DNA of 64,000 nt from Chelativorans multitrophicus (GTDB lineage Bacteria > Pseudomonadota > Alphaproteobacteria > Rhizobiales > Rhizobiaceae). The stretch lies in the NCBI RefSeq assembly GCF_011317445.1, contig NZ_JAAAPL010000001.1:620001-684000 (forward strand). Direction: 5' to 3'. Position 1 is the stretch's first letter; every line of letters begins with the position of its first letter. Below the pieces are notes generated by a model. The model was given only the letters and a program-made list of their open reading frames with translations. It was not told the DNA's origin and made no database searches. The translations under genes and the position numbers were made by a program. Below are positions 38,877 through 47,736 of this stretch, piece after piece.

Positions 38877-40307
38877 TCATGCCGCGGGCAATACAACTTC
38901 AGCCCGGAGTCCTCCAAGCCTGGAACGCTCCAAGGCGAGCGTTCCCCCATATTCCTTCACCAGATCAGCGGCGATTGCGAGACCAAGACCCGTGCCCGGC
39001 TTACTTTCGTCGAGCCTGCGGCCGCGTTTCAGCGCCTGTCGCGCCTGGTCTTCGGGAATTCCAGGTCCGTCATCCTCGATCATGACGCGAAAACCAAGCC
39101 CTCGCGAATCAGCCAGCCGCAGCGGCTGCAACCAAAGAACCACATTCCGATCGGCCCATTTCATGGCGTTTTCGAGAAGATTTCCGATGATCTCTTCCAA
39201 ATCCTCTCGCTCGCCCGCGAACACCACTTCCGTGTCGGGCATCGTCGTCTGGAGCTTCTTGTCCGGGTTGAGCTTCTCGGCGACGCGCGCCATGCGGGCC
39301 AGTGTCTGGTTTACGGGACTTCGCGCTGCAAGCGTACTGCGCTGCGCCGCGGCGCGAGCACGCTGCAGATAGTGATCGATCTGCTTCTGCATGGCCTCCG
39401 TATGGCCGGTGATGAGTGCGCCCTGCTCCCCCCCGAGAGCCCTGCCCTCATTCATCAGCACGGCAAGCGGGGTCTTCAGCGAGTGGGCCAGATTCCCAAC
39501 TTGCGTGCGTGCCCGCTCGATGATGCGCCGATTGCTTTCGATCAGGGCATTCGTCTCCTCAGCGAGCGGAGCGATTTCCGCCGGGAAAGGGCCGGAAAGC
39601 CGTTCGGCCGTTCCGGCCCGAATATTCGCAAGCGCGCTCCTGATGCTTCCCAACGGCCTTAACGCAATGAGAATAGCGAAGACGTTGATTGCGATCATTC
39701 CGAGGCCGAAGATGCCGAGATACGCATAGAGTCGGCCAGCAAAATCCGAAATTTCCCGTTCAAGTTCGCTGCGATTGCCCATCACGCGAAAGCGGGCGAT
39801 GCGGTCAAGCTGGTCCAGCACGACTTCAGCTTCCAGAACCTCGATCTGCTCCCCGCCCGGGCCTTCCTCCACATAGCTGCGCTGGAAGTTGCGGTCGAAT
39901 TGAACATCGGCAGTGGAAGGGGATCTGACCGGCATCACCAGAGACGATGAGCGCAATTGATTGCGCAACGCCGTCGAGATTGGTTCCACGGACCAATACC
40001 AGCCCGACAACGGTTCGGAAAACCTGAGATCGCCCAGGTTGGGGCTCCCCACCAGGCGGCCGTCTTCGGTCGCACTCACCGAAGCGATCAGGTTGAAGAG
40101 ATGCGCGGAAAGCACATTGTCGAAACCGCGCTCGCTCACCTGCCGGAACAGGGTTGAGATAACCGTCGCGATTACCACAAGCGCGATTATCGCCCAAACG
40201 GACGAAAAGAGCACGACACGGAAAGTGAGCCGGCGCGGCAGGCTCGTAAGCCAAGCCTGCATTCGTGCCACCGGGCGAGCTACCGCGTGATCTGCCTCAT
40301 CCGTCAT
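38877..40307 (-). CDS. feuQ: Sensor histidine kinase FeuQ-like
   Basis: A 476-residue membrane kinase: two membrane segments (about residues 30-52 and 195-217) around a periplasmic sensor region of about 140 residues, a HAMP-like linker, HisKA with GNLAHSLKTPLAVLMNEG, and HATPase_c (DDGPGIPEDQA, GTGLGLAIAADLVKEYGG), as in PhoQ-type kinases. It overlaps the regulator gene by 11 bases. The order feuPQ upstream of cycHJKL is known from Rhizobium leguminosarum; in Sinorhizobium meliloti FeuPQ controls cyclic glucan export. Identity here rests on that context plus sequence type. Confidence 0.82.
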   Translation of the reverse strand: MTDEADHAVARPVARMQAWLTSLPRRLTFRVVLFSSVWAIIALVVIATVISTLFRQVSERGFDNVLSAHLFNLIASVSATEDGRLVGSPNLGDLRFSEPLSGWYWSVEPISTALRNQLRSSSLVMPVRSPSTADVQFDRNFQRSYVEEGPGGEQIEVLEAEVVLDQLDRIARFRVMGNRSELEREISDFAGRLYAYLGIFGLGMIAINVFAILIALRPLGSIRSALANIRAGTAERLSGPFPAEIAPLAEETNALIESNRRIIERARTQVGNLAHSLKTPLAVLMNEGRALGGEQGALITGHTEAMQKQIDHYLQRARAAAQRSTLAARSPVNQTLARMARVAEKLNPDKKLQTTMPDTEVVFAGEREDLEEIIGNLLENAMKWADRNVVLWLQPLRLADSRGLGFRVMIEDDGPGIPEDQARQALKRGRRLDESKPGTGLGLAIAADLVKEYGGTLALERSRLGGLRAEVVLPAA

Positions 40308-40965
40308 TCGGCTCGCGCATACGGTATCCCATGCCTCGCACAGTTTCTATCAGGTCCACGCCCAGCTTCTTGCGCAGGCGCCCGACGAAAACCTCGATCG
40401 TATTGGAATCGCGGTCGAAGTCCTGATCGTAAAGATGCTCCACCAGCTCCGTTCGCGAAACCACGGAACCTTTGTGATGCATCAGGTAAGCAAGCATCCG
40501 GTATTCGTGGGAGGTGAGCTTCAGCGGCACGCCATCCATGTCCGCCTTGGACGCCTTGGTGTCCAGCCGCAAAGGTCCGCAGTAAAGCTCGGAGGATGCA
40601 TGTCCCGCTGCGCGGCGGATGAGCGCCCGCACGCGCGCCAGCACCTCCTCCATATGGAAGGGCTTGGTCACGTAGTCGTCCGCGCCGGCATCGATGCCGG
40701 CCACCTTATCGCTCCAGCGGTCGCGCGCGGTCAGGATCAGAACGGGCATCTTGCGCCCATCGCGCCGCCAACGTTCCAGCACGCTGATCCCATCCATCTG
40801 CGGCAGGCCGATATCGAGCACGATCGCGTCGTATGGTTCGGTATCGCCTAGGAAATGGCCCTCTTCGCCGTCAAAGGCGCGATCGACCACGTAACCGGCA
40901 TCTTCCAGCGCGACGCTAATCTGCCGGTTCAGGTCTTTGTCGTCCTCGACAACCAGAATGCGCAT
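40297..40965 (-). CDS. feuP: OmpR-family response regulator FeuP-like
   Basis: A 222-residue regulator of PhoP type. Receiver domain MRILVVEDDKDLNRQ with phosphorylation site Asp51 (AIVLDIGLPQMDG) and Lys in YVTKPFHMEEVLARVRAL; C-terminal winged helix with LTSHEYRMLAYLMHHKG and DSNTIEVFVGRLRKKLG. It pairs with the FeuQ-like kinase and follows the FeuN-like gene after 36 bases. Expected targets in rhizobia include cyclic beta-glucan export; targets here are unknown. Confidence 0.85.
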   Translation of the reverse strand: MRILVVEDDKDLNRQISVALEDAGYVVDRAFDGEEGHFLGDTEPYDAIVLDIGLPQMDGISVLERWRRDGRKMPVLILTARDRWSDKVAGIDAGADDYVTKPFHMEEVLARVRALIRRAAGHASSELYCGPLRLDTKASKADMDGVPLKLTSHEYRMLAYLMHHKGSVVSRTELVEHLYDQDFDRDSNTIEVFVGRLRKKLGVDLIETVRGMGYRMREPNDG

Positions 40966-41411: not shown

Positions 41412-41618
41412 TCAGCGGATCCGGGTGTTTGCGGCCAGCCTTCCAAAAATCGCAAAAAGGCCGGATATGGCGGTGATGGCCTGCAGCAGAGTTTCCGTCA
41501 CGGCCTGTTTATCAAGTTCCTCGACTGGCAGGCCCAGAAGGCTTCCCAGGGCTGCGGCGATGGTGATCGCCGATGCCCAGATCGTGCGCGATAGATACCA
41601 CGGTTTCGTCTCGGTCAT
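41412..41618 (-). CDS. Small holin-like membrane protein
   Basis: A 68-residue protein with two hydrophobic segments (residues about 11-28 and 42-60; ASAITIAAALGSLLGLPVEEL and LLQAITAISGLFAIFGRLA) and charged ends, typical of small phage holins, which make pores in the inner membrane. The ATG at 41618 has GAGGAG 10-15 bases upstream; the frame to 41702 is not supported. It starts 31 bases after the terminase-gp15 fusion and is probably co-transcribed with it, which strengthens the phage/GTA link. Holin function is inference from topology. Confidence 0.55.
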   Translation of the reverse strand: MTETKPWYLSRTIWASAITIAAALGSLLGLPVEELDKQAVTETLLQAITAISGLFAIFGRLAANTRIR

Positions 41619-41649
41619 TTTCGCATGCTCCTCTTTGTGGTGAAGATCT

Positions 41650-44121
41650 TCAGGCGAGCGATATCGCCCGTCTGGCGGGAATGCCGGGGCCGACGGCCGC
41701 ACTCATTTGGGAGACGGATATGTCGATCGAAGCGGGCGGCTCGGGAAAATCCGCCGCAATCATCGTTGCCGTATAGATCCAGGCCGGAGCGGTCGTATCG
41801 ACGGTTCTCACAATGCTTCCATTCTGCCCCGCCACTCTGATCCGATAGGCTTCCTGTGCTTCTCCCAGCGGGATATCTTCTCCAAGCCAGCTATCGGCAT
41901 CGATCCGCCCGCGCCGGATCCAGGACAAATGAAGGTCGCCATCCCGCAAATGCGCCTTCAGATGCACGGGCGAGAGAGGCAGAAGCGCCCTCATCCCGCC
42001 TTCAGCCGAGACCTGCAGGAAATGCTCCCCCGAAATGTCGTATCCGGCAGGTCCCACTCGCCAGTTGAGCTCAAGACCGATTTCCTCCGCCTTCAGCCCG
42101 GCGGGCGCGACCGCCTCGTCCAGCAGAACGAAAGGCGCGCCAGTTGCGGCGCCCGCCATCATCGCGTCGCCAGTACCCAGCTGGCCCCGCAAAAGCCCGC
42201 TCAGCCGCCAGACCGACGGTTCGATTTCCTCAGCGTGCTCGAACTGGAGGATTTCCCAAACACCAGCCGACGAGCGGACGGCGGCGGCATTCCCGCCATT
42301 GCACATCCTTATCCTCGATATGCTCTGGAATTCTCCATCGAGAAGGTGGACATCGAGCGAAGCCGAACGGTCCAGACGGCCTTCGACGGTGCCGCCCGGT
42401 AATGCCTGCCGAAGCAGGCCAATGGTCGCTCTGCCTTCCGCGGTGGAACGCAGGTCGAAGCCGGCCTGTTCCGGGGAAGCAAGCACCGCCTGCCTGCGCC
42501 AGGGCGCTGCCCGCACGGCAAGCCGGAACTGATCCTGCGGCGTATCCTGCGCAGAACGCAGCGGCAGATCCAGAAACAGCGCGTAAGGCTTGCTCGGTCC
42601 ATAAACACCGCCGGAATTTCCCGGACTCTCGACAATTCTTGCCGGTGGCGCCGCCACACGCACCACTCGCCTCGCCCTTACGAGCCGGCTCAAGCCCTCC
42701 TCGATCTCTTCGACCAGATAGTCCGGCCCTTCCAGCTCGCCCGGCAGCCGCAGGACACTTCCGGCATCGATGCGCCGCTCGGCTGCGGGCACCGCAAAGG
42801 TGACGCGCTCACGCCCATCCCACCTTCGCCTCATCAGGTCGCGAACGAGGCTCTCCGCCTCGCCTGTCGCAATCGAGCCCGGGAAGGAAACGAAGCTCGT
42901 GCCGCTGCCCTTGGCGCCCACGAAATCAGCGGCCGCCGTCGCCGACTGATGGCTGTTCATCGGATCGGTGAAATCCAGATGCACAAAGGCTGGCAGATCT
43001 TGATCCGGCTGGCGCACGCGCTCCACAAGCTCATGCTGTTCCTGCAGGACAAGGTCATCTAGTGTGACCGCCCTGCCTGCCCCCTCGGTCGCGAAGACAA
43101 GCCCCTCTTCGCCATCCACCGCGCCGATGCTGAAGAGCGCGGCGACCGGCTCGATCGCCGCGCGCGCGGTCGCCGGGTTCGTGACGGCGTAGCCCGCCAC
43201 CATGCCATCGGCCCGTGAGGTATCGGCCGGCGGCAGGCCATTGTCGGCCAGGATCTGCGCAATCAGCGCCTCGACGGGAACGCCGCTCAAGCGTCCGTTC
43301 AGCCAGTGGCCGCTCCACCAGTTGCCGCCGTCCCCCCATACATCGCCCTGCAGCGGAAAGGCCGGAAAGGGCCGCGCGTCCCAAGCCCAGATGCTGATCT
43401 GCCCCACATCCACCATCGGCCCGCCATAGACCGGAGAAATCGGATTGGCGGCCGGACCACCGTCTTGCCAATGCCGGTAATGGGCCATCAGGAATCGGTA
43501 TTGCGCGAGATCCGAGCGCCCGCCATTCGAAAAATAGGGCACGGCGCTCTCCGCCGATTTCGGGTCGCCAAAGACATTCGGCTGGTTCGGCCCCTTGTCG
43601 ATCGCCGCGCATCCCAGTTCGTCGCACCACGCGGCGTCGAATTGCGGCCCGCGAAGGCTGTCGGGATCTTCCGAGGAAAAGACCAGCGCCACCGCGCCAT
43701 TGTCCCAGACGAGACGCCGCCGGCTCGGCTCATAATGCGGACGGTTCCCGCGCGAAATGCTGCGTATGCCCGAAGGCCCCTCGATCATCACCTCGCGCAC
43801 ATCGCCCAGCGTCTCGCCGACAAGCGCGATGCGCCCATAGCGATGAACCGCAAAGGGCGGCAGTCCGCGCACCAGCGAATTGACCCATTCGGCCCCGAGC
43901 CTCGTCTTGCCGGAGCCCCTGCCGCCCATCACCAGCCAGGTGTCCTTCAACGATGCACCGGCCGGATATTGCGGCAGGCGGGCGGACCCGAACCATTCAG
44001 ACAAGATCCGCGGCGCCGCTTCCCCGTTCAGCATCCTCGCTGCCCATGGTGGCAGCGAGTTCACAAGCGAGTTCCACGATACGGGCATCGATGAGGGAGA
44101 GCGCGGCGGCCAATTCTGCAT
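41650..44121 (-). CDS. Chimeric GTA protein: terminase large subunit ATPase fused to gp15 baseplate C-terminus
   Basis: An 823-residue open frame with two unrelated halves. Residues about 35-168 are the ATPase of a GTA terminase large subunit (gp2): Walker A MGGRGSGKTR (65-74), and Walker B-like FDAAWCDEL (161-169). From residue 170 the sequence is the C-terminal half of the GTA baseplate protein gp15: GCAAIDKGPNQPNVFGDPKS, SPVYGGPMVDVG, IWAWDARPFPAFP, then the tail-protein domain. In intact GTA clusters these segments are about 12 genes apart. The join at about 43615 keeps frame, deleting the terminase nuclease domain, all capsid and tail genes and the gp15 glycosidase-like domain. Start uncertain (44121, 44088 or 44034). 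No stop codons or frameshifts interrupt either half. Confidence 0.85.
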   Translation of the reverse strand: MQNWPPRSPSSMPVSWNSLVNSLPPWAARMLNGEAAPRILSEWFGSARLPQYPAGASLKDTWLVMGGRGSGKTRLGAEWVNSLVRGLPPFAVHRYGRIALVGETLGDVREVMIEGPSGIRSISRGNRPHYEPSRRRLVWDNGAVALVFSSEDPDSLRGPQFDAAWCDELGCAAIDKGPNQPNVFGDPKSAESAVPYFSNGGRSDLAQYRFLMAHYRHWQDGGPAANPISPVYGGPMVDVGQISIWAWDARPFPAFPLQGDVWGDGGNWWSGHWLNGRLSGVPVEALIAQILADNGLPPADTSRADGMVAGYAVTNPATARAAIEPVAALFSIGAVDGEEGLVFATEGAGRAVTLDDLVLQEQHELVERVRQPDQDLPAFVHLDFTDPMNSHQSATAAADFVGAKGSGTSFVSFPGSIATGEAESLVRDLMRRRWDGRERVTFAVPAAERRIDAGSVLRLPGELEGPDYLVEEIEEGLSRLVRARRVVRVAAPPARIVESPGNSGGVYGPSKPYALFLDLPLRSAQDTPQDQFRLAVRAAPWRRQAVLASPEQAGFDLRSTAEGRATIGLLRQALPGGTVEGRLDRSASLDVHLLDGEFQSISRIRMCNGGNAAAVRSSAGVWEILQFEHAEEIEPSVWRLSGLLRGQLGTGDAMMAGAATGAPFVLLDEAVAPAGLKAEEIGLELNWRVGPAGYDISGEHFLQVSAEGGMRALLPLSPVHLKAHLRDGDLHLSWIRRGRIDADSWLGEDIPLGEAQEAYRIRVAGQNGSIVRTVDTTAPAWIYTATMIAADFPEPPASIDISVSQMSAAVGPGIPARRAISLA

Positions 44122-44494
44122 CGCTTTTCTTCTGCTTTTCTGCTGCGCGTTCGGGAAGGCGCGTCATCTCGCCAAGCTTCTCGACCATCCGCAGCATGGT
44201 CGAGAGCGCGTCGATGCGGTGCTTGTCATATGCGCCGGCGGCCCTGCCCTCGGCGCCTGCCGTCTCCAGGTCGCTGACCAATTGATCGGAGAGCACCACC
44301 AGGCGCCGCTCCAGCGCCTCGGTGTCCTCCTGCGGCGCCTCGTCCGCCTTCCGCCAGCCTTCCCTGCGGGCAAGCGTTGCCAGATAGGTTTCCGAAAGCC
44401 TGCATGCCTGTGCCAGCAATCCGAGAGAAACCGGCGCCCCTTCAAAGAGCGCGCGCTGCGCGCGCCGCGCGGTCGCCGCCGAACCGTATCGCAT
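43997..44494 (-). CDS. GTA gp1-like terminase small subunit
   Basis: A 165-residue protein with an N-terminal helix-turn-helix-like part (VSLGLLAQACRLSETYLATLARREGW) and long C-terminal helices (KHRIDALSTMLRMVEKLGEM, ...AELAAALSLIDARIVELACELAA). This matches the small terminase-like gp1 that begins alphaproteobacterial GTA clusters and helps start DNA packaging. The ATG at 44494 has GGAGG 4-8 bases upstream. Its end overlaps the terminase-gp15 fusion frame by up to 125 bases. It appears intact. Confidence 0.7.
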   Translation of the reverse strand: MRYGSAATARRAQRALFEGAPVSLGLLAQACRLSETYLATLARREGWRKADEAPQEDTEALERRLVVLSDQLVSDLETAGAEGRAAGAYDKHRIDALSTMLRMVEKLGEMTRLPERAAEKQKKSDAELAAALSLIDARIVELACELAATMGSEDAERGSGAADLV

Positions 44495-44668
44495 CGATCC
44501 TCCAAAAAATCGGGAAACAAAAAAGCGCTGGCCGGGAGGCGCAGCGCTTGCTCAGTTCAAGGTCCAAGGAGGTCCAAAATGCTTCGGGGCATTCGCGATG
44601 CCCTCACCGCCGGACCCACTTTTCCGACGATAGCTGAACCCTACCAGACCGCCGTCACGGCGTCAAGG

Positions 44669-44676
44669 ACTTTTTT
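44669..44676. repeat. Target-site duplication, left copy
   Basis: ACTTTTTT directly outside the left inverted repeat; identical to 47278-47285. Eight bases is the expected length for IS1595-family insertion. Confidence 0.88.
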
Positions 44677-44700
44677 CCTAATTATATACTTGACAAAGTA
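44677..44700 (+). repeat. Left terminal inverted repeat of the IS1595-family element
   Basis: 24 bases starting CCTAATTATATAC and ending GACAAAGTA; complementary to 47254-47277 with a single mismatch (T versus A at the fourteenth position). Confidence 0.9.
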
Positions 44701-44740
44701 CGGCCGATTTCATAGGGTTGGCCATAGAGAGGGCAGACCC

Positions 44741-45722
44741 ATGAAACTTGACCATCCGATCTTCACCAACGTTGACGCAGCCCGCGAGCACCTTAAGGCG
44801 CAGCGTTGGCCGCATGGTCCCGTCTGCCCGCATTGTGGCAACACCGACCCTGCCCGCATCACGAAGATGGAAGGCAAGGCGCATCGCCCCGGCCTCTACA
44901 ACTGCATGGAATGCCGCGAACAGTTCACCGTCACCGTGGGAACCGTATTCGAGCGTTCCAAGATCGCTCTTAACAAATGGCTGCTGGCAACGTTCCTCAT
45001 GGCTTCCTCTAAGAAGGGCATGAGCGCGCACCAGCTTCACCGTATGCTCGGCGTCACCTACAAGACCGCATGGTTCATGGCGCATCGCATCCGTGAGGCC
45101 ATGAAGGAAGACGTGAAGTCCTCCGGCCCGCTCGGCGGCGAAGGCAAGACCGTTGAGGCCGACGAGATGTACATCGGCAAGCGTGAGACGCCTCGCAAGC
45201 TCGCTCGTGGCCGCATCGCCAACCCCACCAAATCAGGCAAGGCAGGCGGCGCACAGAAGCGCATCGTGGTTGGCCTTGTGGAGCGCGGCGGCAAGTCCCG
45301 TATGTTCCACCTGAACGATGCCACGAAAGAGACCGTGCGCGACGTGCTGGTGCGTAATGCAGACCGCAAGTCCATCCTCTACACTGACGAAAGCCGTCTC
45401 TACACTCGCACTGGTGAGGAATATGCCGGTCACAAGACCACCAAGCATTCCGCTGGCGAGTACGCCCGCCGCGAAGGCGACGTGGTTGTTCACTCCAAAT
45501 ACGATTGAAAGCGTGTTCTCAGTGATCAAGCGTGGCATGGTTGGCGTCTACCAGCATTGCGGCGAAGCCCATCTGCACCGGTATCTCGCTGAGTTCGATT
45601 TCCGTTACAATCGCCGTACGGCGCTCAAGATCACCGATGCGGAGCGCACCGATCAGTTGCTTGCCATGATCGAAGGCAAGCGCCTCACCTATCGGCGGAT
45701 TGGTGAAGCCGATCACGCCTAA
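44741..45722 (+). pseudogene. IS1595-family (ISXO2-like) transposase, frameshifted
   Basis: The first frame (44741-45508) gives a zinc ribbon (CPHCGNTDPARI... YNCMECREQF), TVTVGTVFERSKI, and DDE-type catalytic residues in VEADEMYIGKRE and ILYTDESRLYTR, then stops after VVVHSKYD. The C-terminal part (NTIESVFSVIKRGMVGVYQHC ... FDFRYNRRTALK) continues in another frame to 45722. Removing one A from the run at 45497-45499 restores VHSNTIESVF, so a single inserted base broke the gene. AGAGAGGG lies 8-15 bases before the ATG. There is no slippery heptamer typical of programmed frameshifting. Otherwise full length, so the lesion is recent. Confidence 0.88.
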
Positions 45723-45767: not shown

Positions 45768-46289
45768 CTAGCCGGGGCCAAATTCCTCAGCCGCTGTCGG
45801 ATAAGGCTCAAGGCCCAGCCTTATTCGCATGGCAGGTAGAGAGACTTGAAGGGCATCCGCCATAGCTTTCGGCGTGGTTTTCCCTTCCGCCCTCAGGCGA
45901 CTGATCAGATCGTAGGGCATTAGCAGGTTGGCCGCGAAGCGGTTTGCTTCCGTCTCCTCGCGCGGGCCTATACTCGTGTTGTGGTAGCGCCCCGCGCTCG
46001 TGCTGCGATAAGCCCGATCATCGTCAATCCCGGTGCCAATCAGGTGGCGGTGATGGAAGAAATGCCCCAACTCATGTGCTATCGTAAACCTACGGCGGCG
46101 CTCACCATGGGTGGCGTTCACATTGATCTGGTAACGGCCCTCACTCACGGGGACCAATTCACCGGAAACGTCATCAGCCAACCATGCAGAATGAACGCGG
46201 ATGCCGAGTTCACGGCAAAGGCCCTCCAGATCTACCGGATAGCTACTCTGCGCCCTCTTTACGGCGCTTATCATCGTCGTCACTGACAA
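45768..46289 (-). CDS. ImmA/IrrE-family zinc metallopeptidase
   Basis: A 173-residue passenger-encoded peptidase. The zinc motif is FTIAHELGHFFHH (His72, Glu73, His76), with the second conserved block EETEANRFAANLLMP around residues 111-125, the ImmA/IrrE (DUF955) signature. Members cleave or bind regulatory proteins such as phage repressors or act as antitoxin-like partners of small toxins. No N-terminal HTH is present, so the target is likely encoded separately. Its start overlaps the end of the upstream membrane-protein gene by 47 bases, so the two are probably translated together. Confidence 0.88.
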   Translation of the reverse strand: MSVTTMISAVKRAQSSYPVDLEGLCRELGIRVHSAWLADDVSGELVPVSEGRYQINVNATHGERRRRFTIAHELGHFFHHRHLIGTGIDDDRAYRSTSAGRYHNTSIGPREETEANRFAANLLMPYDLISRLRAEGKTTPKAMADALQVSLPAMRIRLGLEPYPTAAEEFGPG

Positions 46290-47320: not shown

Positions 47321-47509
47321 GTGAAGCAGACATTAAAGACGCCGCCTAAGCCCGACAAAGGAGGGAGTGCGAATAGAAAGGGCGACGACAAAAGCCGCCG
47401 CCCGAAACGGATGATACCTAATGCTGCTCAGGCCGCGAGACGTGACTCGGCAAGGTTGATGGACTCCAACTCAGCCCGGATCACCGGCTCAGTTGTCTCC
47501 ATTTCGTAG
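47321..47509 (+). CDS. Possible small basic protein with LKTPPKP motif
   Basis: A GTG-initiated 62-codon frame whose first 35 residues (MKQTLKTPPKPDKGG..., KGDDKSRRPKR) resemble the small passenger protein at 46667-46837. The last third overlaps higA on the opposite strand, so the frame may be truncated. Purine-rich sequence (AGAAGAAA) lies upstream. It sits just outside the right end of the IS1595 element. Confidence 0.35.
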   Translation: MKQTLKTPPKPDKGGSANRKGDDKSRRPKRMIPNAAQAARRDSARLMDSNSARITGSVVSIS

Positions 47510-47736
47510 CGGTTTTGGAGGTTGAGCCAAAACTCCGGCGTTGTGCCGAAGATGCGGGCTAGCCTGAGGGCCGTGTCCACCGTGATGCCGGTTTCCTCAC
47601 GGACGATACGTTCAATCCTGGTCCTCGGAACTCGGCACGCTTTTGCGAGTGCGTATGCCGTAAGGCCATATGGCACCATAAATTCCTCGCGAAGCACCTC
47701 TCCGGGGTGCATAGGGGAAAGCCGCTTAGACATCAT
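47428..47736 (-). CDS. higA: HigA-family antitoxin
   Basis: A 102-residue HTH_XRE antitoxin of the HigA/VapI type: SPMHPGEVLREEFMVPYGLTA, then the helix-turn-helix (YALAKACRVPRTRIERIVREE) and DTALRLARIFGTTPEFWLNLQNRYE. It binds and neutralises HigB and represses its own operon. It follows the higB remnant by 13 bases, the usual toxin-first order, with AAGGAAG 5-11 bases before the ATG. It appears intact although its toxin is broken. Confidence 0.9.
   Translation of the reverse strand: MMSKRLSPMHPGEVLREEFMVPYGLTAYALAKACRVPRTRIERIVREETGITVDTALRLARIFGTTPEFWLNLQNRYEMETTEPVIRAELESINLAESRLAA

Follow-up and report, generated by a model that had tools for sequence, protein, structure and literature searches.

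The stretch of DNA analysed here comprises 64,000 nucleotides of Chelativorans multitrophicus (NCBI RefSeq assembly GCF_011317445.1, contig NZ_JAAAPL010000001.1, positions 620,001 to 684,000 of the forward strand; hereafter the window), a member of the order Hyphomicrobiales, the former Rhizobiales. It carries what is left of a gene transfer agent (GTA) cluster, in which the gene of the terminase large subunit, gp2, has been joined to that of the baseplate megatron protein, gp15. The joint gene occupies positions 41650..44121 on the minus strand, where the list of open reading frames (ORFs) gives one open frame of 823 codons without a stop, and stands well within a contig of 2.27 Mb, some 0.66 Mb in. 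Residues 1-167 (43621..44121, minus strand) are the N-terminal half of gp2, as indicated by a match to Terminase_6N in Pfam, by identity to gp2 and by comparison of junctions; residues 168-823 (41650..43620, minus strand) are the C-terminal part of gp15, with the last third of GTA_TIM, Phage-tail_3 and Rcc01698_C. That such a chimera stands at this locus is a confirmed observation, and its translation is assumed. The conclusion that a GTA cluster has collapsed to a chimera in place, and that this collapse is recurrent, in frame and precise to the codon on the gp2 side, is firm.

The N-terminal half contains the motifs GGRGSGKTR and FDAAWCD(E), which we take to be Walker A and Walker B, and it ends at Asp167, the last residue assignable to gp2 alone (WCD, followed by ELGC). 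The Terminase_6N match spans chimera residues 64-169 and profile positions 2-105 of 215. The chimera therefore shares with large subunits of this family a complete Walker A and a Walker B with Asp-Glu, but Pfam and PHROG give no terminase match beyond profile position 105 of 215, and the rest of the ATPase and the nuclease domain is unmatched. On the other side of the join, GTA_TIM matches residues 159-256 (profile 204-299 of 299), and the NCBIfam model GTA_megatron (NF048004) matches residues 160-818 (profile 640-1297 of 1299) with 642 bits, below its curated cut-off of 800. Identity to the two nearest intact relatives in the genus, G008 (Chelativorans sp. J32) and G011, is 86% and 83% for the gp2 half and 75% and 79% for the gp15 part. 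These database matches and identities bear out the sequence-only reading of the frame as a gp2 ATPase half fused in frame to the gp15 C-terminal part. An alignment sets chimera residues 159-820 against 644-1302 of the RcGTA megatron, Rcc01698/g15 (PDB 6tba chain 8A; also 6teh), whose peripheral, central and fibre-binding domains span 230-744, 745-984 and 985-1304 according to PMC7296036. By those limits and this alignment the join falls within the peripheral domain and not at a domain border. The chimera would thus share the end of the peripheral domain and the whole of the other two, but it lacks the iris/penetration and adhesin-like domains and most of the peripheral domain, and starts instead with half an ATPase.

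In intact clusters the parents are separate genes. Of the 15 congeners, 12 have the gp2 and gp15 parts in separate frames (on different contigs in G007 and G015), and the other three (G005, G010, G012) have one gp2-type match only; the possibility that the halves normally form a single protein is rejected by these separate genes. Taken from coordinates, G008 has 11.6 kb and G011 has 12.4 kb between the join point in gp2 and that in gp15, in keeping with the earlier proposal that the parents normally lie more than 10 kb apart; about 12 kb has gone in place. Among the ORFs of the window locus there is no gp3-gp14 between the two halves. A whole-genome search with the G008 capsid gave a single 38% match, on another contig, the remaining gp3-gp14 genes not having been searched one by one, and a second Terminase_6N match in the whole genome is limited to one separate frame of 500 aa. 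The in-place deletion took gp3-gp14 together with the last portion of gp2 before them and the first half of gp15 after them, leaving the chimera as its scar; with these lost, GTA particles can no longer be made from this locus. Three congeners, G002, G004 and G009 (loci L019, L020 and L021), have a second, divergent gp15-type gene of about 35-37% identity elsewhere in the genome, which perhaps belongs to a second GTA-like or prophage cluster.

The same fusion recurs widely. Searched against 394 genomes of the family, the whole chimera gave a single-frame match spanning the join in at least eight others, with identities of 38-57% among the matches listed. A junction profile (A1) built from eight of these nine fusions, all in family f1, found the same eight across the join in the 394 family genomes at E <= 1e-27, a recovery that is not independent; in 397 genomes of the order it found its own members and at least three new fusions, and in 385 of the class its own and at least one new at E <= 1e-24. 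These samples overlap, and the search counts are lower bounds. A profile of intact gp2 (A2), which locates the end of gp2, was run on 70 chosen genomes, 75 of genus g114, 99 of family f2 and 152 of the class; 9 of the 75 genomes of g114 and 3 of the 99 of f2 are fused. The junction was read in 25 genomes, from three families of the order and, in one case (G931), from outside it. All 25 have the Walker-B Asp (W-x-D) as the end of the gp2 part, followed by a codon that begins with G, and a frame that is open across the join. Walker A is complete in all 24 fusions that contain the region, which G1199 lacks because its contig ends there. Where Glu follows, the join can be placed only to within a few nucleotides, because gp2 and gp15 share that Glu.

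Five landing places are used, in gp15, a holin-like gene or a lysin gene, all of which stand at the 3' end of the operon. The commonest is gp15 at Glu-[Leu/Ile/Ala/Tyr]-Gly, in 16 genomes (G000, G179, G101, G048, G023, G387, G155, G019, G616, G651, G754, G1192, G1159, G1200, G1199 and G931, the last with a frame that breaks later, after the join), and it is spread over seven genera of f1 and over f6 and f74. One fusion lands slightly further on in gp15, at VFFDPKS (G254), and two land early in gp15, at ELELL near position 91 of the megatron model (G1169, G1214). Three join a holin-like gene at AKTIW, all reading D-AKTIW (G005, G251, G356), and three join a lysin gene with TIGR02594 and glycosyl hydrolase 108 at AF-x-GACLERAG (G706, G1256, G1263). 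The holin-like site recurs across genera g1, g109 and g54 and the lysin site across g230 and g181, and G005, a holin-like fusion, belongs to the genus of the window itself. The sequence-only reading had offered either one very recent deletion or one chimera kept under selection; neither suffices, because 25 genomes share the gp2 breakpoint with five join points. A cut that recurs to the codon in related bacteria is also poorly accounted for by simple random deletion.

Several candidates fell away on inspection. G1202, in which the frame is broken beside the site in a genome 84% complete, and gp2 fragments at contig edges were not counted as fusions. Short gp15 frames of G043, G092, G148 and G045 start in gp15 itself, and that of G296 starts in unrecognised sequence. 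Profile matches left of the join in G655 and G737, of the order, and in the viral-contig loci L129, L152, L166, L167 and L179 proved to be ordinary gp15, either without Walker A or with the usual FTE-type strand. The junction peptide is not covered to 80% by any plasmid record, none of the best 20 of 212 phage records crosses the join, no fusion appears in the rows read among the best 80 of 554 viral loci, and viral contigs gave no match to one junction DNA pattern. A second recurrent interruption point of the terminase shows in other clades, where matches to gp2 fall into two pieces near residues 258-281 (G888:C1:430789-432500; G784; G916; G1252, G764, G1262); in some of these both pieces share a contig, separated by a gap or a small insert.

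Trees of both halves (INDEPENDENCE) place most fusions with intact congeners, where these were included. The C-part tree (13 fusions among 44 rows) takes 10 state changes, at least nine of them forced by well-supported branches, and the N-half tree (12 among 34) takes eight, at least six forced. A wider N-half tree of 24 fusions and 25 intact rows takes 18 changes, at least 15 forced; it omits G1199, whose N-half is cut by the contig end, and its intact rows are a chosen and not a complete set. On this tree the fusion label is no more clustered than when shuffled (428 of 500 shuffles as low). Across the trees of both halves the fusions form one group in 0% of 200 bootstrap trees. A state change is not necessarily a gain of fusion, but reading the changes as losses would demand the regain of 12 kb of genes. 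The N-half of G1169 and that of intact G1168 stand at 0.03 changes per site each, and those of G005 and intact G014 at 0.02 and 0.01; the G1169 and G005 events are therefore recent.

The genes around the chimera place the collapse at the native GTA site. Overlapping its start, in the position directly before gp2, is a gp1-like ORF of 165 aa (43997..44494, minus strand), which has no match in Pfam, PHROG or NCBIfam at E 0.001 and is 56% identical to the stretch preceding the gp2 remnant of G005. Downstream lies a holin-like ORF of 96 aa (41412..41702, minus strand), or about 68 aa if the conserved start MTETKPWYLS is used, which matches phrog_29088, of unknown function, at E 6e-4; the gene to which gp2 is joined in G005, G251 and G356 is homologous to it, and the product of G356 matches phrog_34682, 'holin'. 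Both had been noted earlier as left beside the chimera, as indeed they are. The RcGTA-like clusters of G008 and G011 have gp1, the gp2 N-half, the gp15 C-part and the holin-like gene in the same order, with 75-86% identity over the two halves, whereas the window has lost the gp2 C-part, gp3-gp14 and the gp15 N-part and has the ends fused. Further downstream are a response-regulator-like gene (40297-40965) and a histidine-kinase-like gene (38877-40307), both on the minus strand and named by reading the sequence. The regulator family comes after the chimera at 6 of 14 fusion loci and the kinase family at 9, and another family stands on the other side in 10 of 14, by a greedy choice of ORFs; in intact G008 relatives of both genes come after gp15. 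The window locus is the native GTA site on the strength of these shared families. Just upstream of gp1, an IS1595/ISXO2-like transposase with zinc ribbon and DDE domains (44774-45722, plus strand) is split over the frames 43880-45508 and 45318-45722, and is probably broken, as two frames share it. Also near the collapsed locus, on the minus strand, are an IrrE-like peptidase (Peptidase_M78; 45768-46289) and a helix-turn-helix ORF that reads as HigA-like (47428-47736).

The site could be fixed by a mechanism of cutting and joining or by selection for the half that binds nucleoside triphosphate (NTP). We lean to a directed break, since selection for a minimum length permits longer gp2 remnants and fixes no landing codon. 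The explanation we tentatively prefer, at somewhat less than an even chance, is recurrent deletion in place at a preferred site, where a sequence-directed break and join leaves an open chimera. Break and join would be directed to DNA common to gp2 and the landing sites and lying in codon register, perhaps the TGG codon three codons before the join, the GAR CTS after it, or both; a site-specific nuclease of the homing-endonuclease kind, combined with end joining, may serve as an example of the agent. The product would come out in frame because all of these genes read the shared motif in one phase. With the partner aligned at the join, a Trp in register with gp2 Trp165 is present in 17 of 17 holin-like genes found and in 2 of 2 lysins, in proteins of which Trp makes up 2.3% of residues; five early-gp15 sites of f6 also have it, in a search whose pattern itself contained Trp. 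This points to the DNA level, because the Trp of the partner is absent from the product, and the regularity is not universal. A likeness exists in inteins of the phage terminase large subunit (TerL), some of which, such as TerL1-e, use the conserved Walker-B coding site for insertion, and whose endonucleases cut intein-less TerL alleles, as described in PMC5050341. Unlike at these inteins, the outcome here is a large deletion and not an insertion, and by eye no large insertion shows at this gp2 position in the match tables, in a survey that did not look for endonuclease genes.

Several observations weigh against a directed break. No nuclease, intein or intron was found at the site, though none was searched for by family. 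The in-register Trp is present at only 9 of 18 printed gp15 Glu-x-Gly sites, with His in the genus of the window, and the VFF landing site of G254 has no such match, its intact parent not having been seen. In the genus of the window hundreds to thousands of downstream positions fit the gp2 end equally well. Outside the order, none of the 47 other gp2-bearing genomes (of 151) stops at the site, G931 being the sole case. Other gp2 breaks exist as well. In G731 (L077:7542-8729) a different internal GTA deletion fuses gp2 residues 1-105 in frame to the portal gene gp3; in G1186 (L088:4955-6139) gp2 is broken a few codons upstream of the usual site and runs out of frame to the portal and then to gp15 residue 1167; G587, G1301 and G1233 have further breaks, out of frame by their coordinates; and in G1173, G545 and G554 gp2 ends elsewhere with no partner identified. 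Because of these breaks the usual site is a strong preference and not the sole break, and the in-frame state accompanies it.

Selection could explain the uniform in-frame joining equally well. In this possible but doubtful alternative, deletions arise at random, and those that survive retain everything from Walker A to the Walker-B Asp, with some C-terminal piece following in the same frame. Such chimeras would be favoured either for a use of their own, perhaps as an NTPase that is dominant-negative or associated with the envelope, or for the harm that other products do. The complete Walker A and the invariant Asp speak for it, the more so as the Asp of gp2 is kept even where the local match would put the crossover before it, in the lysin and holin fusions, and so does the finding that, of the five other gp2 breaks with a recognised partner, only that of G731 is in frame. 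Selection for 167 residues or more nonetheless leaves unexplained that no catalogued fusion has more of gp2 and that the landing codon recurs for each partner. The ratio of nonsynonymous to synonymous change (dN/dS) of the C-part is 0.05-0.17 on fused branches, like the 0.09-0.18 of intact sisters (one value undefined), which counts for selection, but fusions sit mostly at tree tips, so that low values may largely predate fusion; with fusions that look young, dN/dS mostly reflects the intact phase. For the N-half the ratio is 0.10 in G000 and G005 and about 0.6 in G387 and G179, G101 being unusable (dS 0.016). The higher values might be held against selection, but they are no clear sign of relaxation, because intact G239 is also raised, at 0.39-0.52. 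Relaxed selection after fusion is thus not favoured, with a C-part that resembles intact sisters and a noisy N-half. The dN/dS comparison suggested by the sequence-only reading gives C-part values like those of intact sisters and does not isolate the time after fusion: on trees, intact G239 falls between the two most closely related fused genomes of a single genus, G101 and G179, and values of 0.23-0.38 between fused species of g114 also span intact relatives.

Ordinary microhomology or replication slippage at a gp2 hotspot, such as a fragile DNA structure, with loss of the GTA neutral or favoured, is unlikely. The earlier proposal of recombination at short homology rested on similar text in both parents, and part of this holds, with TELGC in gp15 and CDEL in gp2 of G014; the nearest relatives G008 and G011, and also G009, read CDEV, so the shared text is shorter than was assumed. 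The commonest join does have the short common text GAR CTS GG, one of four measures ranks the site within the top 3, 17 and 28 positions downstream in G118, G239 and G064, and the out-of-frame G1186 deletion breaks gp2 close by. In an ungapped repeat scan, however, the gp2/gp15 site scores below 9 in 10 of 10 intact clusters, each with 45-402 other pairs at 9 or more, and it ranks poorly in the genus of the window. Microhomology at the G1169 join, with G1168 as the parent-like sequence, is 3 nucleotides, and at the G005 holin join, with G014, it is 0; in G1168 alone gp2 and gp15 offer 55,643 in-frame 3-mer pairs and 19,552 4-mer pairs, overlapping ones counted apart. Short homology is thus not supported as the cause of the join, simple repeat-driven deletion is rejected or weakened by the scan, the ranking and these counts, and 25 in-frame outcomes of 25 also stand against it.

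It is quite unlikely that each fusion type arose in one ancestor and then spread horizontally, recombining through the short conserved stretches that flank the join. Protein sequence is highly conserved on both sides of the join, and the three holin fusions share D-AKTIW, as such spread would predict; yet both halves track the host genus, and the Lys at the holin join is native in g109 and G014. Synonymous differences near the join are not raised in the close pairs G101/G239 and G1169/G1168 or on the right side of G005/G014. To the left of the G005 join, 3 of 5 synonymous differences to G014 lie at 5-10 codons, a single bin that favours import. G387 differs from G163 at 13 of 17 synonymous sites within 20 codons of the join; since intact G278 shows much the same difference from G163 (13 of 18), it is G163 that stands apart. 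The test is weak for the G000, G387 and G048 pairs, whose synonymous sites differ at about 35-50%. A single origin with horizontal spread is weakened by the trees and by this test, and import of the fusion from elsewhere is disfavoured. Misassembly or a database artefact is very improbable: the fusions are known from assembled sequence of one genome collection only and some lie on short contigs (G251, 3.8 kb; G356, 3.7 kb), but others (G048, G155, G179, G754, G931, G1192) are found within long contigs of genomes assembled in one to four pieces, their sequences are divergent and their partners differ.

To our knowledge, the final loss of long-kept GTA clusters has been little studied. No report of a GTA terminase fusion or collapse was found among the titles and abstract openings of open-licence PMC literature, and the texts of PMC11409702 and PMC7947584 make no mention of truncation, fusion or deletion. 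GTA loss is here seen to leave a signature, namely a break at one particular codon of the packaging motor, a small set of landing sites that are used again and again, an open frame in 25 of 25 cases and at least 15 state changes forced by the tree. Given this signature, a mutational mechanism or a selected product can be put to a direct test, and past inactivation of a GTA can be recognised by a simple check of the sequence. It is conceivable, if on balance doubtful, that repeated sequence-directed cutting of the GTA terminase at the Walker-B codon, joined in register to sites at the 3' end of the operon, silences GTAs in many species of the order and leaves an in-frame NTP-binding chimera. 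If true, directed cutting would be an unrecognised, targeted mode of inactivating GTAs, and possibly prophages.

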